Source: Larix sibirica (taxonomy: Eukaryota; Streptophyta; Pinopsida; Pinales; Pinaceae). From it: 23,695 bases of DNA. This document shows, one piece after another, positions 1,766 to 23,695 of this stretch (within the stretch, counting starts at the first letter, position 1; each line of letters starts with the position of its first letter). The notes under the pieces are model-generated. The model was given only the letters and a program-made list of their open reading frames with translations. It was not told the origin of the DNA and did not search any database. The DNA is taken from positions 8,287-31,981 of the forward strand of contig NWUY0300037819.1 in assembly GCA_004151065.3 (NCBI GenBank). Direction: 5' to 3'. The position numbers were made by a program, and so were the translations under genes.

Positions 1766-3047
1766 TAGGTCTTATATGCAAATGATAAATCATACTACTG
1801 TGTAGGCATTATACTAAAAAGCATAAGCTAAAGCATATATACTCATTTTAGATGGGATTTTTGTTGAATTACAATTTGCAAAGTTATAATTTGTAGATGG
1901 GCAGTTTGTAAAATTACAATTTTTGCAATTTCCAAATCGAGGGGTCTTCCATTGAGGGATCCTTCAAAGGAAGAAGTTTATTTTTCTTTTTCTTTCTCTT
2001 TGTGATTTGTGTCTTTGCTATGAGGTCCCTTGAAGGAAGGAAATGCCTTTTATTTTATTTTTCTTCCCCACCTATGTGCAAAGAATAGATTATGAGTAAT
2101 AAAATGTAGAAAATCTACAAAGCACCAAGCATTAATAGGTATTTTTTTTACATCCAAATTACCTTGGATGTAGACCCCCAACCTCATTGTCCACATTCAA
2201 TTTCCATGATTTTTTTATCCCATTTTTGCATTTTTTTCTTCATTTTTTTCCTCATTTTTTTCCTGAATTTCTTGGCCAAACCATCCAATTGATAGGGTGG
2301 TTGAATGCCTAAGAGAACACAATATTTCTAAACTAGACGGTATACTATCTTTCAACATGCTCGTTCATATTTTTGCACATTTGTGTGAGTGGTATAATAA
2401 GGTTGTGAAGAGTGCTTAGGACCCTGGTCGGTGTTCTAGGTTGTCAAGCTACATAATTACAATAATAAAATAATGAACTCTACAACTCACTTTAATTTGA
2501 ATGTTTTGGAGAGAATATCATTAAAGTAAATTTAGATCATAAATTTTATAAGCTAAGCCACAAGTTTATTGCCATTTTCCCCTTATAATATAGTGCATTT
2601 TATGATTTTCATTTAATTCATGACATTAACATAAATTTATCTTAACCTCGAATCTATACTAATTTATTTATTATTATGTTTTTCTTTTATTTAATTTGAA
2701 ACATTTGTATAAGTGGTTTTGATTTATTTATTTTATGTGATTGTAATTTTTTAATTCAACTATAAATAAGTAAACTTGAAATATAAATTTTAGACATTAA
2801 ATAATAAATTAAAAATTAATTTTCAATTTAATTTATTAATTTTACATATATAAAATATCTATTTAATTTAAGAAAAGACCCAATACCTATACACACCCTA
2901 ACTTTAGGTGTAGGGAGCTTTTACATGAAATCACTTTAAACTTCCAATTTTTTCATTATACATACATGTGCATGTTCCTTGCCTCATATTTCATTTTGAG
3001 ATGTGACAGGTTTAGAATGAGCATATCAACTATATATCATATCAAGG
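1766..3047. other. AT-rich intergenic DNA with a T-rich tract
   Basis: Noncoding as far as I can see. At about 2200-2275 there is a T-rich low-complexity tract with repeated catttttttc-type words. 2580-2880 is extremely AT-rich. No gene or transposon terminus was recognised before the TSD of LINE-A. Confidence 0.6.
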
Positions 3048-3062
3048 TGTTCAAAATAATTC
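3048..3062. repeat. Target-site duplication of LINE-A, 3' side
   Basis: The 15 bp tgttcaaaataattc stands directly next to the poly(T) that marks the 3' tail of the minus-strand LINE-A. It is repeated perfectly at 13001-13015 beyond the 5' end. Confidence 0.9.
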
Positions 3063-3300
3063 TTTTTTTTTGTAAGCTAGATGTAGATCTTTATATTATC
3101 TTCACAAAAATATACAGTGGTAGAAATGTACCGGGCCCTCTCGTAATCGAGAAAATAGACCCCAAAATAGAGTTGCAAACTGAGTTTAGAGTAGTCATCC
3201 TAGGAGGAAAGCAGTCTTTACAGATAAAAAAACATACTAAGAGGAATAAGTGCCCTGAATCAGAGTTGCAAAAGTATAAACAAAAGAAAAATAGACAGAG
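3063..3300 (-). other. LINE-A 3' UTR and poly(A) tail
   Basis: On the plus strand the element begins with nine T (3063-3071), the complement of the poly(A) tail, directly next to the TSD. The preceding element sequence ends in cttac before the A run, as does LINE-C (15722-15735). The 230 bp between the last stop codon and the tail is T-rich on the sense strand and has no coding signal. Confidence 0.8.
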
Positions 3301-3798
3301 TTAACTATCGGTATAACCCGTCTGTCCAACCTGGGTAGGTTGGGTAGTAGGTTCCTTGGCAAGAGTGATACCGAAATGGTGAGCCAGCTGTTGCTGATTG
3401 TAGAGAATATGCTTTAGGAAGTCAACTATTTTGTCCTACTGCATGAGAATTTCTGCTTTGGCCTCATCTTTGCCTGCAAGTGTTGTGCCGAGCACCAGTT
3501 TCTGGGACCAGTGGTAATCAAGAGTCTTTTGATAGAGTGTAACCATGCCTATGGTAGACCCTGGGTCAGGAACCAGGGTTTCAAACTCACTGTGAATTTA
3601 CTCATTAGTGAGGCATCCACGGGAAACCAAAGCGTCATGCTCAGCTTCCTTAATTTCATCCTGCGCTTTCTGAGGGATTACATTTTTGTAACGGCGAGCC
3701 TTCTCCACAACACCGCGCATGAGGTGCATGGGTGGACCAGAGGAGGGGATAGCATGCTGCACAAAGCAACGGGTGTTAGATTTCTTAGTGGGCGGCAT
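3301..3798 (-). pseudogene. LINE-A: ORF2 tail end or separate third ORF, unknown function
   Basis: A frame of 165 codons starts with ATG at 3798 (MPPTKKSN...) and ends at TAA 3301-3303. It is interrupted by TAA at 3598-3600 and TAG at 3436-3438. It is in the same frame as the RNase H region upstream, so it can be read as the end of a very long ORF2. The stretch just before the ATG is CT-rich on the sense strand and looks like a plant 5' UTR, so an independent third ORF or a captured gene piece is also possible. Composition is protein-like: a basic start (KK, KARRYKN), an acidic amphipathic helix (KAQDEIKEAEHDAL) and a second helical part (DKIVDFLKHILYNQQQLAHH). I do not recognise the family. 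It lies within the TSD-bounded element and so moved with the LINE. Confidence 0.5.
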
Positions 3799-4392
3799 GT
3801 ATGCTTCCACAACAAAATTCCCAGAGAGCAGAGGGAGAAGAGCCTCGGAGAGTGAAGAGATCAGAATGAGCTAAGCGGACCGGGAGAGCCGAGAGCACCG
3901 AGAGAGTCGGGAGGGCTGAGAGCGATTAGTACTGGAGCGCCTAGGGAGTGTAGCACTAGACCGTTGAATACTAGAGAGCCGAGAGGGTTGTGAACTAGGG
4001 AGCTGAGAGGGCTGCGAATCAGGGAGCTGAGTGGGTTACGAACCAGGGAGCCAAGCGCGTGTGAGATGGATACCAGAGAACCAAACACCATAGTGAACAC
4101 TTGAGAAATGAACTCCGTTGAGCCAAATTCTTGTGGAGCCTTTGCACAAGACATCCAGGAGCCGAGCGTCAACAGTGTGGTTGCGTTGTGGATGAACATG
4201 AGCTTCATACCTTATGCTACCAACAGTACATCCCCATTCATCAATATGCATTGGAGTAATCATGGCCATAACAGGAGCATCCCAATTGGATGGAGCGCAC
4301 ACAGGAGAGGTCTCGAAGCAGGAGAGGTAATGAGCCATGGACGAGGCATTAACCGGGGACAATTAAAAGTTGTTGTGGGACACGTGGGTGGA
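3799..4392 (-). pseudogene. LINE-A ORF2 C-terminal extension after RNase H
   Basis: The frame that encodes RNase H continues beyond the TAG at 4393-4395 without any frameshift. It is interrupted only by TAA 4363-4365, TAA 4036-4038 and TAG 3871-3873. It encodes a folded-looking stretch (4362-4060, with motifs such as APSNWDAP, IDEWGCTVG and HPQRNHTVDARLLDVL) followed by a Ser/Pro/Gln/Arg-rich part containing 24 bp repeats. No domain was recognised. Other frames here are also fairly open because the DNA is GC-rich, so openness alone is weak evidence. The 24 bp repeat period and the shared frame are better evidence. It may be a true ORF2 extension, or sequence acquired at the 3' end of the LINE. 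Confidence 0.5.
3964..4059 (-). repeat. 24 bp (8-codon) tandem repeat in the ORF2 extension
   Basis: Four consecutive 24 bp units on the minus strand (4059-4036, 4035-4012, 4011-3988, 3987-3964) encode the pattern P-[ST]-[QR]-L-[PS]-x-[SI]-Q. A fifth, more degraded unit may follow (3963-3940). The period is a multiple of three. In the first unit the stop TAA (4036-4038) stands where the other units have Gln (CAG or CAA), so that stop is probably a mutated CAA. Confidence 0.75.
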
Positions 4393-14871: not shown

Positions 14872-15704
14872 GACCGTCTACGACCACCACCACTCCCCTC
14901 ATTCATGTTTGCTTGCATCATATAACTACGCCATCATCACTAGACTTACTTCCACCTGTATGGTGAGCCTATTATCAATGACTTCTATCCCCTCTACCTT
15001 GCCAACCATCACGTCCGTAGAGAGGGAGTGACAGTCAACCATCCCATCACTTCTCACTGGGAGATGAGTTATTAATTTAATTTTATTAATTAATATTATA
15101 AATATTTATTTTAAGAAATAGATTATAAGATTATATTATAAATGACAATTTATAAAATTATATTTTATAAATTTGTATAAAGGTTTGTAGAACTTGAGTG
15201 AGTCTAATCATAATGGTTAAGAACATGGTTTTTTTTTAAATGCCATATATAATTTTCTAGGAGGATATGATACACACATGTAAGTAAGTTGTTGTTTATG
15301 GATATTTATGTGTCATATACAAATATTGATCAATCTCAAATTAGAAAAATGATAAAAATATATTTAATTATTACAATTTTTTTATTTGATGGATATTGAA
15401 AAATATAACTTGAGAATTTAATAGTTTTATATAAATCCCTTGTCTAGAACTAAAAGATCTCATATATCAATTTAGTTTTTATTTAAATTATAATTTTAAA
15501 AATTATTTATTACTAATATTATAATTATAATGAAAAATAAAAATATTTAATTGTTATAATTTTTTTAATAAATATAAAAAAATAAAATGAAATTTGAAAA
15601 GAGAAAGTATATTTATATATCATCATTTTTATATTTAATAAACATGAATGAAAAATTAAATTTTAACACTTCAAGCCAAAGGAAAGGAGTTATGTGTGTT
15701 CATT
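14872..15704. other. Noncoding DNA, AT-rich from 15060
   Basis: 14872-15060 may still belong to the decayed relic. From 15060 the sequence is strongly AT-rich with no recognisable gene or repeat up to the TSD of LINE-C. Confidence 0.55.
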
Positions 15705-15721
15705 ATTGTTTTACTAGATAC
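15705..15721. repeat. Target-site duplication of LINE-C, 3' side
   Basis: The 17 bp attgttttactagatac is followed directly by the poly(T) of LINE-C. It matches 17747-17763 (attgttttattagatac) with one mismatch. Confidence 0.88.
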
Positions 15722-15907
15722 TTTTTTTTGTAAGTAAGAGAGGAACCTTGTATTACCTTAACAGAAAATAAAGTTACAGTACTATACATCGCTACCTGCC
15801 TTAAGGCCAAGTGAGGTGGAAAAAGAGGCTAACAGCCAAAAGAAGAACTTAGAATGAACAACTAAATAGGCAAAGAGAGACAGACATGGAAATAACAAAG
15901 AAGAGAA
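15722..15907 (-). other. LINE-C 3' UTR and poly(A) tail
   Basis: From the ORF1 stop (TGA 15908-15910) the sense strand runs through a CT-rich stretch to cttacttac followed by eight A. No ORF2 start or endonuclease motif (SWNxRG, QETK) occurs after ORF1, so the 3' UTR follows ORF1 directly. Confidence 0.8.
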
Positions 15908-17718
15908 TCAACGCCCTGAGATGGGCTGATTCTTCGATTTACCCTTTTTTCCTTGTTTTTTCTTTACTTGTATCCAGCCCCCTGACTCTGAGGGCACTAA
16001 GGCCAGTTGCATCGCGGCATTGGTCTCATGGTGAAGTTCCTTATCAGAGTCTGAAGAGGAAAAATCATGATTTATTTTATGCCCTTGTGGAGGGCCACTT
16101 TTCGTATCTTGGTCTTCTTGAAGATTCATGTTCACCTCGGGCGGAGGTGGAGTAGAACTCTACTCCTGGTTGGCTGCAAGTGTATCTTCCTCCAGCTGGT
16201 CACTTTGATCATATTCATCCTGCTGGGGCATCCCTAGATGCCAGCGTTTGGCTTTGTGAGCCTTCATAGTCCTGTGGTGTTGGGGATTCCTTTGCGAGCA
16301 AGCACTAAGGAGGTGTCCCGTTTGTTTGCATAACCGGCACATGAAGGCCTTGTTTTCATAGTCCAAGGGTTGAGACCAGGTGGAGCTGCCTATATTCAGG
16401 TTGATTTTGTCGAGAAGGCCTGAACTGATGTCAATGGAAACGCAAATGCGAGAAAAGGTGAAAAGAACCTGTGCTGAGCGAGTGTCATCAAAGGATAAGA
16501 AGCACCCCAGAGCGTTACCAATCCCTTCAAAGACCGACGGAGTCCAGAAATGGATTGGTAAGTTAGGCAGATGAACCTAGATGGGAACCTTCATCACTAC
16601 CATGGTTAAAGGGTTGAACTCCGGGAACCAGGGGGTTAAGAAGAGCCCTGCAGACCCCCAGAACCAAGGCCCCTCTCTCATAACAGTCAGAAGGTCTTCT
16701 TGACAATGAAAAATTACTAGAAAAAAACCTTTAGAACACAGCAAAACCTAAGGACTCCCGATCCAATTGGACACAATCCACCCGAGGAGATCTTTGGTTT
16801 TTGGCCATAACCCATTGAAACTGCAGATAAGGGTCAACTCCTTGAGCACGGTAATTTTCTTGTCGACTTCCGATTGAGAGATTTCCACCAAGGGAACAAA
16901 ATCGGTTTTGTCCATTATATAAACAGGGTGAGGAGTCTGGACTGGACCATGTGTTGGAGAGAGACTCACCCGCGTTGCCTCCTTGAAGGTCTTATGCTGA
17001 GAAGACAAGGGTTTGATGTTACCTCCTCATAGGCTTGCCACGATGGAAATGCAAGCATCCTTTGAGATTCCAAGGCTGAGGAAATACTGATGGTCGAAGA
17101 GTTGCCGCCCTACAAAAATAAGCCTCTGCTGACCAGGAGGGGTTCCTTCTACCTGATGAATCAATGATTTCAGTTCCAGAATAGAGAAAAGGTGGGTCAC
17201 TTGCAAGCAAAGAGATGGCCCCTTCAAAGATCTAACAAAAACGAAAATGGAGCAGGATCAAGAGGAAACCTGGTGGCTTTGTCTCATCTTGTGGTTGCTA
17301 TATCCGCAGAAACAGTCAAGTCAGAAAGAGATGGAGTTAAATAGAAATCACGATCAGCTTCCTTCGAGAACTCTGTCTACACAGGAGGTTGCAATAACCA
17401 AAGTGGCGATGGCTGGGTTGCAAGGAGCGCCAGCGAAAGGGATTCTTCTACTATGCAAGTCGCAGCTTTCAAACCCCTGTTAAGAACCAGAAGGGCCAGA
17501 GGAACATCTGTCTCAAGGGCTGGTTCCTCGCTCTCCATCCCAACTCTGTCGTCTCGGCAGAACCCGGCAAGGACCTGGGGTAGAACTCGATAAGGAGCAT
17601 GGGCCCAGGGAGGCATCTCAGGCGAAGGCTTTGGCTTCCCTATAGCGTCCAGATGGCCGAAAGGTCCAGCGGTGGCACAAAACTTCGCTAGGGTTTTTGA
17701 GGAGCTTTCCATTCCCAT
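15908..17718 (-). pseudogene. LINE-C ORF1: ubiquitin-like + DUF4283-like + CCHC protein, broken
   Basis: Start is MGMESSSK (ATG 17718) or MESSSK (ATG 17712), about 30 bp inside the TSD-defined 5' end. An N-terminal region of ~150 residues (TAG 17377-17379, then another stop) changes frame near 17250. From the ubiquitin-like domain (17248-17021) on, one frame continues to the end with only four nonsense codons: TGA 17027-17029, TAG 16748-16750, TAG 16577-16579 and TAG 16160-16162. This part holds the DUF4283-like region (LICSFNGLWP, GFFLVIFH, MREGPWFWG, VHLPNLPIHFW, RICVSIDIS), an intact CCHC knuckle CRLCKQTGHLLSAC, an acidic linker and a basic tail (QVKKKQGKKGKSKNQ) to TGA 15908. ORF1p would bind RNA. 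The TAG at 16577 stands where the family usually has Trp (VWV), so a G-to-A change is likely. Confidence 0.9.
17021..17248 (-). other. Ubiquitin-like domain inside LINE-C ORF1
   Basis: 76 codons align to plant/animal ubiquitin without a single gap. I count about 29 identities of 76, including F4 V5 L8 G10, L15 V17, I23 K27 I30, E34 G35 P37 P38, the block QQRLIF at 40-45, G47 Q49 L50 D52, I61 K63, V70, L73 and G75 G76. The hydrophobic patch L8/I44/V70 is kept. K6 and K48 are Arg, K11, K29 and K33 are lost, and K27 and K63 remain. Residue 74, Arg in ubiquitin, is TGA (17027-17029), most simply CGA to TGA. After GG the frame runs straight into the DUF4283-like part, so the end could have been a deubiquitinase cleavage site. 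That last point is inference. Confidence 0.9.
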
Positions 17719-17746
17719 TTCCAAAAAAGAAACTTGTTTCCCAGAT

Positions 17747-17763
17747 ATTGTTTTATTAGATAC
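17747..17763. repeat. Target-site duplication of LINE-C, 5' side
   Basis: attgttttattagatac, 16 of 17 bases equal to 15705-15721, directly beyond the 5' end of LINE-C. The next 18 bp (17764-17781) are host sequence separating it from the TSD of LINE-B. Confidence 0.88.
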
Positions 17764-17781
17764 TTGCAATGAATACAAGCA

Positions 17782-17800
17782 AGTAATAATTGTTTTATTT
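17782..17800. repeat. Target-site duplication of LINE-B, 3' side
   Basis: The 19 bp agtaataattgttttattt precedes the A-rich tail of the minus-strand LINE-B. It is repeated perfectly at 23658-23676. Confidence 0.88.
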
Positions 17801-17877
17801 TAGTTTTTTAGTAGGGAAAAGCATTTCATTAGGTAAACAAAGTATAACTAGCATACCCCTAAAGTGGGGGAAATGAA
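17801..17877 (-). other. LINE-B 3' UTR end and A-rich tail
   Basis: On the sense strand the element ends with ctttgtttacctaatgaaat-like sequence and ccctact before aaaaaacta and the TSD. It lies beyond the N at 17878, which cuts the RNase H frame, so some sequence between ORF2 and the 3' UTR may be missing. Confidence 0.7.
17810..17847. repeat. Direct terminal repeat of LINE-B, 3'-end copy
   Basis: 38 bp equal to 23600-23637 except for two bases (36/38), in the same orientation. It stands directly before the A-rich tail, so this is the expected 3' UTR end. Confidence 0.85.
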
Positions 17878-17878
17878 N
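17878..17878. other. Single ambiguous base in LINE-B RNase H
   Basis: N stands where the RNase H reading frame (ending HFKAF) abruptly stops resembling the family and passes into the 3' UTR. This may be an assembly join with lost sequence, as at 9840. Confidence 0.75.
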
Positions 17879-18700
17879 GGAATGCTTTGAAGTGGGTGAA
17901 AGAGGTCATGATTTTCCGGATGCGGTGGATGATCCGTGTTATTGCCAGATCATTGGAGACAGTGTGCATGTTGAGAGCTTGAATGATTAAATTGGAGTCT
18001 CCAAATACATGAATTTTGTCAATTTTTCGATTTTTGGCAATCTGACATCCTTTTAATAATGCCAAAGCTTCTGCAAGATTGTTGGACCAAGTTCCCAGGC
18101 CCCACCTGTATTTGATTTCTGTTGTTCCTCCTGTAGAGAGAAAGAGTCCTTCTGCTCCAACCAGTTGGAGGTTCTTTTTGGATGCGCCATCGAAGAGCAA
18201 GCTGTCAATGTTCTGTCTATTTCTCCATTCTTGAAATTCAGAGTTGGTGAATCTGAGTTGCAAGTGTGGCAAAATACGACGTCTTAATATTACAACCTTT
18301 TTGGGATTGGGAGGGAGGGTGCCAAGCCAAAGAATCTCATTTGTATTGAGATTTGTATCCGTCTTGAGATGGGAAGAATGTATGCATTCGATAAGGAGGC
18401 CTTTGTCCTGTCCAACACCTTGCAGGGGGGAGGTGAAGGAGTCTTGGAATAAGGTTTTGTTCCTAGCTAGCCAAATTTTCCAGCATACGAATTTAGGAAT
18501 CGTGAGCCAAATGAGGGACCAAAGTTTTCTTTTTGACAGAGGGGAAGGATAGATGGAGTTCCAGTTTTTTAGCAAGCAATTGATGGAGTTGAAGATTGGC
18601 ATAGTCAAATTAAGGATTTGGAGCATGTGGTTCCAGACAGTTTTAGAAAATTGGCATTCCAAAAATAAGTCATCAATTGATTCATTGTTTCTTCGCATAA
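17879..18700 (-). pseudogene. LINE-B ORF2: end of zinc-binding region and truncated RNase H
   Basis: One frame runs from the zinc-binding end (NNESIDDLFLEC) through WSLIWLTIPKFVCWKIWLAR, a conserved plant LINE stretch, to RNase H. The core starts at LLFDGASKKN (Asp), continues with NNLAEALALLKG (catalytic Glu kept), then VFGDSNLIIQAL (Asp), and ends at FTHFKAF where the N lies. The final ADxLAN motif with the last catalytic Asp is missing. Unlike LINE-A, the central Glu is intact. Confidence 0.88.
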
Positions 18701-19592
18701 GATGCATCTGTGTGGCCCATTGATGCCTCTTTTGATTAGATTGTCCCCAGTCAGTATTTTCCTGTGAGTGAGTGTCCATATGAAGAAATTAATTTTGGGG
18801 AGTCCAAATGGGTTCCATACCATGCTCCATAAGATTTTCATAGAGCTATCATGATTTTGAAGGGCCTTGAAACCAAGAGCAGCTGTATACTTCCCTTTTG
18901 GCCCCCAGCCACAATTGTAATTTGTCTTGGAGGTGGGAAGGGGCACAACCGGACAGATTTTCCATGAGGAGGATTCTGGAGTGTTCAAGATTAGTTGGGA
19001 TATCAAGAATTTTCCAAGCCTTCCAATCATCGTTAGAATTCCAAACACTGAGATCTTTCAGTGTTTTAATTCTGTTATGAGCAAGCCAATTGGAAATTTC
19101 GTGGAGATCATTCTTCTCCTGGAGTGGGGGGTGTCCCATGATCTTGTCAGAAAAAATGTTAATGTTCCTTCCATTTCCAGGAATCCAGTAGAGGTTCTGC
19201 GCGAATATGTCCCAGGAAGCTCTGCATAATTCCCATATCGAGGATCCTTTAGAGTTGGGCTTGTTGTCGATGCATCTTAGCATTGTGCCAGTTAAGTATT
19301 TTTTCCTAATTAGTTGAATTACACGGTGTTGTCTATTGGAAAGTATATGCCAAAGTATTTTGCCACCCAATTCTATGTTTTCTTGGTGAGGGTCACGAAT
19401 TTGGAGTCCACCTGAGCTTTTTGGTTGCTTAATGATGCTCCAGTTCACCAGGTTCAACTTGTTCTCGTTGTGTTTTCCCCCACTCCAAAGGAAGTCTCTT
19501 AAGAGTTTACTTATTTGATTTGAGATCCCTTTGGGTGCTAGAAGGAGGTATGATTGGTAAATAGAGAGTGCCGAGAGTACTGCTTTAATCAA
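18605..19592 (-). pseudogene. LINE-B ORF2: post-RT linker and zinc-binding region
   Basis: Frame 19592-18849 holds the post-RT linker (LLRDFLWSGG, NLVNWSIIKQPKSSGGLQIRD, GSSIWELCRASW, GNGRNINIFSD). A frameshift near 18900 leads to frame 19048-18605, with WGPKGKYTAALGFKAL, GLPKINFFIWTLTHRKIL and CILCEE, the zf-RVT start. A second shift near 18700 leads on to the RNase H frame. Order and motifs match LINE-A 4393-6294. Confidence 0.87.
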
Positions 19593-20680
19593 GATTAATT
19601 TTTTGGCTTTGTTGAGCCAGTAACCTCCCCAGTTTCTGAGTTTGGTCTTGATTTTTCATATAGTTTCCTTCCAGAATTTAGTTTTCGTGTGACCTTGTGA
19701 AATGGGGAGGCCCAAGTATTTGAAGTTGTCCTAGTGCTCGCGCACTTTTATTCCGAGGATGTGTCCGATGTTGGTGGCATATTTCTTGCTTAAGTTCCAG
19801 GTGTAGACAACACTCTTGCATTGGTTGATAATGCCTCCCAATGCATTGTAATACCATGTCAGGTTCTGCTTGAATTTTAGAGATATGATTGAGGAACCAC
19901 CTCCCAAGAAGAGGGAGTCATCAAAAAAGAGGGAATGGTTCAAGGCCATGGAATTGGGGGCTAGATTGAGGCTAGGGAGGGATCCGGTTCGTAAATCAGA
20001 GTTAAGATTTCGACTGAGAGAGTCTTCCAGGATGATGTATAAAAAGGAAGACAATGGGAAGCCTTGTCGGATGCCACGCAATGCTTGGAAGAAGTGTGTG
20101 GGGCGTCCATTTATCAAAGGGGAAATCCAGGGCCCGCTAATGCAGGCTAATATCCAATTTATGAAGGTTTCGTTGAACCTGAAGCATTTCATAATTTTGA
20201 GGAGGGAGTTATTGACGCGATCGAAGGCATTAGCCATGTCAATTTTGAGTGACATACCTTTTTCCTTGCTGGAGTGGATGGCTTCCTGAACAAAGATCAT
20301 GTTGTCGAGAATTTGTCTCCCTTTTAAGAATCCTCCTTGGTTGTCTGAGATGATATTTGCGAGGAGGGGCTTCATTCCGTTGGCCATCATTTTTGAAATG
20401 ATTTTGTATGAATAATTGCACAACGAAATTGGTCTGAATCAACCAAAGAAGCTAGGATTTGATTCTTTTGGTATGAGTGCGAGAAATTTGGAGTTGGTAC
20501 AGCCTCTAATCTTTTCCTTGGATAGAAAATTTCTGACCATTCTCATGTAATATTTCCTGATATACTGCCAGCAGGTTTGATAAAATGAATTGAATACCCG
20601 TCCGGTCCTAGAGCTTTGTCAGGGTCAAAAGACCAAATCGTGTTGATAACTTCTTTCTCCGTGAACGGTTTGAGGAGCTT
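19593..20680 (-). pseudogene. LINE-B ORF2: reverse transcriptase domain
   Basis: RT blocks in order: LGPDGYSIHFIK (about 20600), FRPISLCNYSYKIISKMMANGMKP, GGFLKGRQILDNM, LKIDMANAFDRVN, GIRQGFPLSSFLYI and the catalytic NHSLFFDDSLFLG, then YLGLPIS and the thumb stretch LNKAKKLILIKAVLSALSIY. Nonsense codons occur near 20440, at 19731-19733 and near 19660. At least one frame change lies between 20600 and 20440. The polymerase aspartates are present, and RQGDPLS reads RQGFPLS, a change at a conserved Asp. Confidence 0.93.
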
Positions 20681-21484: not shown

Positions 21485-21991
21485 TGAATAATGGCTTCAA
21501 CTTGTGATTTGAAGGCGTCCCTTCCGGGGTTGCCTCCTTTTTTCTCAGATGCAGAGAAGGTTATGTTCATATCTCTTGCAAGAATAAGATTATGGGGTGT
21601 ATATGCCTCAAGGAAATCTTCCAGAAGACTTCAACAGTATTTTTTCCAGAGTAGAGATTAGGAACATACATGTTGAAGAATGCAATCTGAAGATTTCTTT
21701 GAATGTGCGTGAGTTCTGTAAATATCCAGTGTTGAGTGGCGAAGGAATTGCATAGATGGAGCTTGTCGGAGGACTAGAGGGTTTCCAAGCCACCTGAGGT
21801 TCCTCTGACGCTGATTGCCATGCTAGTGTTCTTTTTCCACTTTTCTTTTCCAATGGCAAGGATAGTGTTTTCATAGAGCTTGGTTTCTTGGAGCATGAGG
21901 ATGTCTAGCATATCGATATTTTGAAGATCTTTGTCTGCGTCTAATTTGTCGGGGCTGCCCAGTCCTTGCAATTCCAAGAAACCAGCTTCAT
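21485..21991 (-). pseudogene. LINE-B ORF2: N-terminal part of APE-like endonuclease (ORF2 start)
   Basis: ATG at 21991 begins MKLVSWNC, the classical start. One base is lacking just after, so the family sequence GLGSPDK continues in another frame, which fuses artificially with ORF1 upstream. Further motifs are DILMLQETKL (catalytic Glu), RGTSGGLETL, TAG 21774-21776, AFFNMYVPN, then after a shift near 21640 LARDMNITFSASEKKGG, where GGDFN has become ARDMN with the Asp kept. Confidence 0.9.
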
Positions 21992-21993
21992 TA
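21989..21993 (-). promoter_or_regulatory. TAATG overlap at the ORF1/ORF2 border of LINE-B
   Basis: The ORF2 ATG (21991) is preceded as TAATG. The TAA is in the ORF1 frame only if a 1 nt indel at the C8 run (22013-22020 on the plus strand) is assumed. The layout matches LINE-A, which makes the assumption plausible. Confidence 0.55.
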
Positions 21994-23315
21994 TTTATTA
22001 TTGTAAATGGATCCCCCCCCGGCGTGTCCCCCATTTTCTTTCCTGTTATCCTAGCTCTAGTGTTTCTGCTAAAGGCCATGTCAAGTGTAGCTTGAGATCC
22101 TTGAGTATTTTCACGTTTGACTTCTTCTTCTCTTATGTCTTTGGTCGATTTTTGCCCAAGTTTTTTGGAATATTTATCTACAAAGTATTCCGAAGAGGTG
22201 GGGGAGGCTACAGATATGGTTTTGGTGATTTCTGCATAGGAAGGAGAGGGTGTTTCAATGGATTTTTTAGGGCTTGAGGTATTCTGGGGTTGGGAGTATT
22301 TTGGGGATTCATGAATCTGGGGGATCTCTTGGGATTCCTGATGTTCGAGGATTTCTCCTTCTTCAGGGGCTTCATGGGTTTCCTGAGTTTCTGAGTTTTC
22401 GAGGATTTTGAATCTATTTTCATTGTTAGTGGATTTGTATTTTTGTTGCTGGGGGTTTTTTCCGGTGCCTTGGGTTTCTTTTGAGAGGGAATTTGGTCCA
22501 TATATAGGGTTAGGATTTTTTTGGATGGTTGTCCAATGATCTATTTTCCCTTCCGAGTCCATATCTATGGGTTTTTTATTGCAGTATCGTGCGAAGTGGC
22601 CATATTCATGGCAGTGCCTGCATTTGAAAGGGATTTGCTTATAATCGAGCTCTTGAATGTGAGACCAGCCTGCCACGGTGAGGTTTATAGCTTCAGGGAG
22701 GCCATGCTCGAGGTCGAATTCAACAAATATCCTTGTGCATGAGTATTGATTCTTCCTGTAAACTTTGTCTATGTATTTCCCAAGGACATTTCTGATGGCT
22801 TCTAGTGATTCAAGGTTCCAGCAATGAAGAGGGAGGTACGGGAGTCTCACCCAGACTGATACTGTGGATGGGACATCTTGAGTCGGATCGAAGTCTGGAT
22901 TCCATTTGTTCAGGTAGAGTCCCTGTGGTCCCATGAAATACGACTTGTTCCTGAAGATTAGCTCTCGATCATGCTTTCTTTCGAAGACAAAAGCGAAGAA
23001 GCCATTTCCTAGAAGGTAAGAGTTGACATCTTTAGAGATTAGGGGTCTCCAGTTTTTTTGAACCTAAGTGTCAATAACCTTTGGAGAGGGTCACAGGCTG
23101 GTGAATTGATCGATTAAGCCTCGGTTCGAGAGATTGAGGGTAGTTTTGCACAGTTGCTCAATCGAGAGTGCTACTGTAGGTATTTCTAATAGTTTTTTCA
23201 CGAATTGTTTTCGGGATGCCGTCAGATTCTTCTTTCCTTGTGTTGAGATGAGCTTCATGAATTCACTAAGCTCAGGCGGATGGGGAGGGGGTTCAGGGGC
23301 TCCATCGAGGGCCAT
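21992..23315 (-). pseudogene. LINE-B ORF1: DUF4283-like / CCHC RNA-binding protein, broken
   Basis: ATG at 23315 (MALDGAPEPPPHPPEL). One frame runs through the DUF4283-like region (LLGNGFFAFVFERKHDRELIF, VSVWVRLPYLPLHCWN, RIFVEFDLEHGLP) and an intact CCHC knuckle CRHCHEYGHFARYC to a Gln/Pro/Glu-rich tail (EEGEILEHQESQEI) with a Lys/Arg-rich end (RNTRARITGKKMGD). Nonsense codons are TGA 23091-23093 and TAG 23064-23066. A probable indel at the G8 run (minus strand, 22013-22020) removes the native stop. Original length is about 440 residues. ORF1p would coat LINE RNA. There is no ubiquitin-like part. Confidence 0.92.
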
Positions 23316-23657
23316 AAGGTCCCAAGCCTGAGCTGGAGGCAGTGATCAAGGTCAAATAGATACAGGTCTTTCGAGGCCCAATATTGGACCACGATCGACA
23401 AAGATCGGTTTGTGGCCTCAGGTCGCAGGCTCATGTGAATTGATCAATGCAAATAAACTAGCGCATAGAGTCTAGGTGGGCCAAACCCATCCACAAGTGA
23501 TCGAGAACAGGAAATCTCTCAGGAGGGAGCCACTGATTAGTCGTGGAGATCGGGTGAGATAAGAGTAGGGGGCCAGATTTCATTTCACATTAATACTCCA
23601 GTAGAGAAAAGCATTTCATTATGTAAACAAAGTATAATTAAGTTGTCAATACCAACG
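23316..23657 (-). promoter_or_regulatory. LINE-B 5' UTR
   Basis: 342 bp between the TSD-defined 5' end and the ORF1 ATG, with normal GC content and no coding signal. At its outer end it contains a copy of the 38 bp terminal repeat (23600-23637). Promoter function is presumed from position only. Confidence 0.55.
23600..23637. repeat. Direct terminal repeat of LINE-B, 5'-end copy
   Basis: 36 of 38 bases equal 17810-17847 (the 3' end of the same element), in the same orientation, 20 bp inside the 5' TSD border. No A run accompanies this copy. Confidence 0.85.
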
Positions 23658-23676
23658 AGTAATAATTGTTTTATTT
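23658..23676. repeat. Target-site duplication of LINE-B, 5' side
   Basis: Perfect 19 bp copy (agtaataattgttttattt) of 17782-17800. The remaining 19 bases to the window end are host flank. Confidence 0.88.
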
Positions 23677-23695
23677 GAGAATTGTGATACCCGAA

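Follow-up and report, generated by a model that had tools for sequence, protein, structure and literature searches.

Known ubiquitin fusion precursors are ubiquitin-RPL40, ubiquitin-RPS27a and polyubiquitin, which deubiquitinases cut after G76. Among retroelements, HAL1 proper arose from mammalian L1 long interspersed nuclear elements (LINEs), in which the protein of open reading frame 1 (ORF1p) is of the coiled-coil type. HAL1 is an ORF1-only derivative of L1 in mammals (PMC5753468). Plant L1 elements in which ORF1 carries a DUF4283 domain are already known, for example Celine of poplar, and the word "ubiquitin" is absent from the available portion of the Celine text (PMC11288735). Here we analyze a 23,695-nt stretch of the Larix sibirica genome (contig NWUY0300037819.1, positions 8,287 to 31,981, forward strand; hereafter the window) that carries, on its minus strand, a degenerate ORF1 with a ubiquitin domain. 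We propose that this copy probably belongs to a gymnosperm family of non-autonomous, L1-derived half-LINEs, which would be mobilized in trans and encode an ORF1p with a captured ubiquitin, likely cut by deubiquitinases.

Ubiquitin domain of the window copy

A sequence-only reading of the window had reported a gap-free alignment to ubiquitin with about 29 identities. We confirmed it for residues 2–76 (29/75 against a plant ubiquitin reference sequence), and the Pfam check on the translated minus strand gave a PF00240 match well above threshold (48.8 bits versus a cut-off of 25.4) and detected DUF4283 as well. A genome-wide PF00240 search also detects the locus (E 5.4e–10). A DUF4283 match split in two lies in the ubiquitin frame, as does a weak match to CCHC; both had been stated (Table 1). 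The residues listed as kept (L8, I44, V70, K27, K63, QQRLIF and G75-G76) are indeed present in the translation; left unmentioned was that the x of the terminal L-x-G-G, ubiquitin residue 74, is a TGA stop (17027–17029). This stop and three further premature in-frame stops downstream of it (16748, 16577 and 16160) leave the copy in the window a dead remnant. ORF1 probably ends naturally at the stop at 15908–15910, where locus L020 has a matching end.

Copies across the genome, origin and selection

The genome-wide PF00240 search returned at least 102 matches, host genes included. When 20 loci were chosen by ubiquitin score, 16 had ubiquitin and DUF4283 on one strand (these include L010 and L011, which are 99.97% alike, and L025, where the two domains are 1.3 kb apart). 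The other four are a gene that we take to be RAD23-like (L009), another ubiquitin-like gene (L013), a polyubiquitin (L028) and a locus with the two domains on opposite strands (L021). All nine loci picked by similarity to an intact protein (L045–L053) carry both domains. The expectation of many copies with the join at the same place was thus borne out, and the reading of a ubiquitin captured by an ORF1 of LINE type is supported. Ubiquitin-bearing elements look like a small minority of DUF4283 elements, since DUF4283 gave 6,444 first-look candidates in this genome.

The copies fall into four groups (A–D). Groups B, C and D are recovered by both ubiquitin-only and DUF4283-only trees, and group A is resolved by neither. 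In a DUF4283 tree of 25 ubiquitin-bearing and 6 other rows, the ubiquitin-bearing rows lie on one side of a branch (support 83/96; 80% of bootstrap trees). The simplest interpretation is a single capture, after which both domains evolved together for a long time; we infer that the capture took place before the known subfamilies split.

Of 32 copies aligned, 22 with a good ubiquitin and DUF4283 part were retained for a codon model. The ratio of nonsynonymous to synonymous substitution rates (dN/dS, omega) was 0.347 for ubiquitin and 0.313 for DUF4283 plus CCHC; at equal kappa, the log-likelihood with omega 1 fell short of that with the best value tried by 82 and 236 units, respectively. For ubiquitin the median pairwise dN/dS was 0.32 among pairs from one group (finite for 43 of 67) and 0.31 among pairs from different groups (finite for 20 of 164, with saturation in the others). 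L010 and L014, the closest pair, come near to neutrality in DUF4283 (dN 0.09, dS 0.10). The ubiquitin domain is under purifying selection. Selection after capture, and the dN/dS below 1 that was to support it, therefore stand; the kept hydrophobic patch offered as its sign does not, because L8/I44/V70 vary among 31 deposited relatives (see below), and we dropped the argument built on it.

In-frame stops occur in 31 of the 32 genomic copies read, and the remaining one, L020, is frameshifted with a stop in ubiquitin; among the 85 genomic matches of the deposited protein P0004 (see below), every one that reaches the ubiquitin start has them too. As a separate observation, the 142 in-frame stops in the 32 copies comprise 89 TAG, 28 TGA and 25 TAA. 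Such a TAG excess might be expected if CHG methylation of silenced transposons in plants makes their CAG and TGG codons decay.

Intact deposited relatives and the ubiquitin tail

A search with one copy retrieved deposited ubiquitin-DUF4283 proteins, for example P0004 (539 aa, 9 members). Its longest matches in this genome share 57–63% identity, with one short stretch reaching 69%; P0004 therefore comes from elsewhere. A 12-row profile search matched 471 proteins, of which 120 were listed, and 28 of 59 proteins examined combine a near-complete ubiquitin with the C-terminal motif (472–834 aa). The organisms named among the 120 of 471 matches listed are Taxus chinensis (P0118) and that of the PITA_ models (P0129, P0135), presumably Pinus taeda. 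The lack of any named angiosperm among these matches, in an angiosperm-rich database, hints that the fusion is a gymnosperm family. A scan of viral contigs found no relatives. A phytochrome places the genome studied here among gymnosperms, possibly in Pinaceae: apart from one entry at 90%, its best hits with a named source are Podocarpus (78%), Taxus (77%), Cryptomeria (76%) and Welwitschia (75%), and the first angiosperm named stands at 70%. A matK search yielded nothing.

We compared the tails of 31 non-redundant ubiquitin domains of deposited proteins (<70% alike), which are 30–49% identical to ubiquitin. G75 and G76 are invariant (31/31), and R72/R74 are kept in 29 of 31. The residue past G76 (P1′) is other than proline in 30/30 cases, and in a second count it is proline in 0/74. 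Like the ubiquitin fusion precursors, these proteins have a ubiquitin fold and G75-G76 followed by a non-proline residue. The N-terminal extension ahead of ubiquitin reaches 393 aa, and the CCHC Cys and His are retained downstream; the DUF4283 and CCHC parts of a plant L1 ORF1 are both in place (CCHC being below cut-off in the window copy). The AlphaFold model of P0039 (80 rows) was good and contains a confident ubiquitin fold, the fold search having been run on the ubiquitin part alone. The model of P0004 (18 rows) was poor (predicted local distance difference test score, pLDDT, 35) and was not used.

Some matches have additional domains. P0034, P0037, P0053, P0084 and P0099 carry domains of host genes ahead of the ubiquitin-ORF1 part and in frame with it (glyoxalase-like, glutathione S-transferase N-terminal, NAD epimerase, DEAD box and F-box-like), and the start of P0073, which has no Pfam match, presumably resembles ribosomal protein S15. 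They reflect fusion transcripts or else the capture of host cDNA; the contig that carries P0034 is 18.3 kb long. P0022–P0030 are bacterial autotransporter proteins with a ubiquitin domain (two named Methylotenera), placed in P0025 after a signal-like N-terminus, and P0031 joins a ubiquitin domain to a PARP catalytic match below cut-off.

LINE-type insertion without ORF2

All-against-all blastn of the window and the 20 ubiquitin-hit loci revealed a unit of ~2.0 kb with nearly common ends in the window's group. Of 21 copies entered into a test for target-site duplications (TSDs), five gave no poly-A by script (L018, L024, L045, L046 and L048) and 16 were scored, with 15 mismatched pairings as controls. 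The TSD scored above all controls in 11 of the 16, clearly in seven (the window, L014, L016, L019, L020, L050 and L052) and by one or two points in four (L026, L047, L049 and L053). Element length is 1.75–2.06 kb in 13 of the 16; L019, L020 and L023 measure 2.4–3.0 kb, and blastn finds a repeated 5′ part in L020. There the 5′ part including ubiquitin is doubled inside one TSD-flanked stretch (oriented 1444–2280 and 2284–4291); the junction consists of one or more N and may be an assembly fault.

In a survey of 30 loci, 21 of them with the C-terminal motif, a poly-A run follows 216–307 nt past the motif in 18. Ubiquitin is inside the available sequence for 16 of these and outside it for L030 and L039. 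The exceptions are L026 (poly-A at 433 nt), L010 (none before the contig end) and L034 (a run only within the motif region). Ubiquitin-bearing copies from all four groups reach poly-A soon after ORF1 (A 3, B 6, C 1, D 6). An endonuclease start motif was found within 700 nt of the C-terminal motif in 0/21 loci, in contrast to 3/3 ordinary DUF4283 loci (L054–L056). We also ran 12 ORF2 queries against 16 ubiquitin-bearing copies, 11 of which have at least 3 kb beyond ubiquitin plus 1 kb, the other five being too short. Neither endonuclease nor reverse transcriptase lies directly downstream in any of the 11 (L024 and L027 contain N runs), whereas ORF2 stands within a few hundred bases in the three LINE controls (L054–L056). 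The element thus resembles HAL1 in having ORF1 only, in its poly-A and TSD, and in an ORF1 related to that of L1 LINEs, the DUF4283 and CCHC parts being common to the ORF2-bearing L054–L056; it lacks the endonuclease and reverse transcriptase of an autonomous plant L1. The earlier placement of the ubiquitin "inside a LINE" has to be corrected: the unit ends ~190 nt past the ORF1 stop, without ORF2.

Table 1. Features of the half-LINE insertion in the window (positions in the window)
Feature	Position	Strand	Evidence
Complete ~2.02-kb solo-ORF1 (half-LINE) insertion, degenerate	15722..17745	-	Repeat unit common to related copies, nearly common ends; TSD and poly-A
5′ TSD, 18 nt	17746..17763	-	One mismatch to 3′ copy; score 17 versus ≤10 in 15 mismatched pairings
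ORF1 N-terminal extension, in a frame differing from ubiquitin here (frameshifted)	17386..17712	-	tblastn conservation just upstream of ubiquitin in L012, L015, L020, L027
Ubiquitin domain, residues 2–76, residue 74 = TGA	17021..17245	-	PF00240, E 6e–13; 29/75 identities
Linker and start of DUF4283 region	16748..17020	-	Alignable to the corresponding stretch of other copies
DUF4283 domain, stop-interrupted	16439..16738	-	PF14111, E 6.5e–8 and 2e–7
CCHC zinc knuckle	16298..16345	-	PF13696, E 0.0015, below curated cut-off
C-terminal tail with GWIQVKKK motif	15911..16159	-	Kept in other copies
3′ untranslated region and poly-A end	15722..15907	-	231-nt 3′-end query from L020 matches 10 genomic places including the window
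3′ TSD, 18 nt, directly past poly-A	15704..15721	-	

Other LINE sequences lie near some copies. In L014 a sense match to the C-terminal ORF2/RNase H region begins 1.95 kb after the ubiquitin start, beyond the 3′ end of the element, and ORF2 queries detect another LINE ~6 kb away in L020 and in the window. Reverse transcriptase and RNase H at 17859–20423 were considered as a partner ORF2 and rejected: they are upstream of the element, outside the TSD, and come after another DUF4283 ORF1 (21774–22934), at which the genome-wide PF00240 search lists no ubiquitin match. This LINE is a separate insertion. Two short repeats (81% and 88%; 17772–17850 and 23583–23679) flank it on both sides in swapped order. 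Elsewhere in the window two sets of open reading frames recur 2,588 bp apart (7594–8214/10182–10802 and 8268–8804/10856–11392), apparently a tandem duplication within a LINE. A link of the 3′ end to an abundant LINE was dropped, as 3′-end queries of 231 and 228 nt gave only 10 matches each in a search that skips common words.

Discussion

Each ~2-kb copy would encode one protein with a variable N-terminal extension, ubiquitin, a flexible linker, a presumably RNA-binding DUF4283/CCHC core as in plant L1 ORF1, and a basic tail. The TSD, poly-A and missing ORF2 point to LINE-type insertion by the endonuclease-reverse transcriptase of another L1, which would copy the element's mRNA into new sites by target-primed reverse transcription. 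Ubiquitin would have been captured once, and its fold and C-terminal tail most likely kept because cleavage behind G76 by deubiquitinases of the host releases the core; such cleavage is suggested by the conserved tail, the flexible linker and a permissive P1′. Alternatively, the fusion may aid folding and output, as in ubiquitin-ribosomal-protein precursors.

Several observations weigh against this model. The short contigs behind the examined proteins may be cut at either end, and the named rows (Taxus and PITA_) have DUF4283 as their sole listed Pfam domain. In five of the 16 scored copies the TSD does not outscore every control (L012 and L017 equal the highest control; L015, L023 and L051 fail), and the bootstrap support of 83 for the ubiquitin clade is under the usual 95. 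The L8/I44/V70 surface patch, a contact for many deubiquitinases, is eroded in the 31 relatives (L8 is kept in 11, position 44 is I in 12 and L in 12 more, and V70 is kept in 4). Among the genomic copies, nearly all dead, R72 survives in 4/25, being S or G in groups B and D; R74 is kept in 15/25 and GG in 18/25. For deubiquitinases that depend on the patch or on R72, the erosion of the former and the loss of the latter from groups B and D are a genuine obstacle to cleavage.

The strongest alternative, which we nevertheless consider unlikely, is that ubiquitin stays uncut and remains on ORF1p permanently, serving for docking or stability. Uncut ubiquitin-like domains are present in many cellular proteins, the diverged patch may disfavor cleavage, and R72 is lost in most copies of this genome. 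However, the R-L-R-G-G end is among the best-kept parts of the deposited relatives and P1′ is never proline, while to our knowledge uncut ubiquitin-like domains need no such end.

A less probable view is that the copies are processed pseudogenes of domesticated host ubiquitin-DUF4283-CCHC genes, whose mRNAs were copied by LINE machinery, with no self-replicating element. Poly-A, TSD and the lack of ORF2 fit it equally well. The deposited gene models with a DUF4283 part in Taxus and as PITA_ entries and the near-universal disruption of the genomic copies also speak for it; a tree-wide omega below 1 is expected from host paralogs too. Yet very many active source genes would be required, given four diverged groups with a median dS of ~1 even within groups and 31 ubiquitin domains <70% alike. 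Moreover, ORF1 is LINE-type throughout, and no intact ubiquitin-bearing source gene was seen among 85 P0004 matches (80 of 7,408 candidates scored).

We regard as improbable that the fusion belongs to an autonomous LINE of which the ORF2-less copies are deleted offspring. An ORF1 with DUF4283 and CCHC is of plant L1 type (L054–L056; PMC11288735), and only a sample of ubiquitin loci was read, but poly-A soon after ORF1 in all four groups and ORF2 directly downstream in 0/11 copies argue otherwise. Chance similarity or an assembly chimera, conceivable for the single low-identity, stop-containing copy of the window, is refuted by the same join in 16/20 and 9/9 loci, the many deposited relatives and the confident ubiquitin fold.

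We know of no earlier case of ubiquitin within the ORF1 protein of a LINE, nor of any plant counterpart to the half-L1s of mammals; the proposed trans-mobilized half-LINE with a captured ubiquitin would be the first on both counts. Our literature search, with subscription journals mostly outside its reach, found no plant LINE, from gymnosperms or otherwise, described as having ubiquitin in ORF1, and no solo-ORF1 LINE from plants. Gymnosperm genomes are huge and rich in old retroelements, and the family has apparently persisted in them for a long time. If our model is true, the element may borrow the plant's own ubiquitin-cutting enzymes, and the invariant cutting site in the deposited relatives makes this tie of a retrotransposon ORF1 protein to the host ubiquitin system directly testable. 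More tentatively, it is possible that a large, old half-LINE superfamily of gymnosperms uses host deubiquitinases for protein maturation, ubiquitin being a built-in cutting site and cleavage perhaps releasing a conjugatable variant, in a role like that of the retroviral gag-maturation protease.

Compared with known systems, the element resembles HAL1, a non-autonomous L1 derivative with ORF1p as its sole product (PMC5753468), but its host is a gymnosperm, its ORF1 is of the plant DUF4283/CCHC type, and a ubiquitin domain is present. It shares with Celine a DUF4283 ORF1 of similar size (1,617 bp in Celine), poly-A and a TSD (10–30 bp in Celine), whereas Celine has an ORF2 with endonuclease and reverse transcriptase (PMC11288735). 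Sugar pine has 1,243 unannotated transcripts in which zf-CCHC (150), DUF4283 (81) and ubiquitin (43) rank with the most frequent domains, perhaps the same family unrecognized, although the available part of that source states neither a joining of the domains nor a retroelement origin (PMC5144951). The ubiquitin fusion precursors differ in that here a ubiquitin of 30–49% identity sits in a retroelement protein, behind as many as 393 aa of N-terminal extension; common to both are a ubiquitin fold ending in RLRGG, the next protein part directly after it, and a P1′ residue that is not proline.
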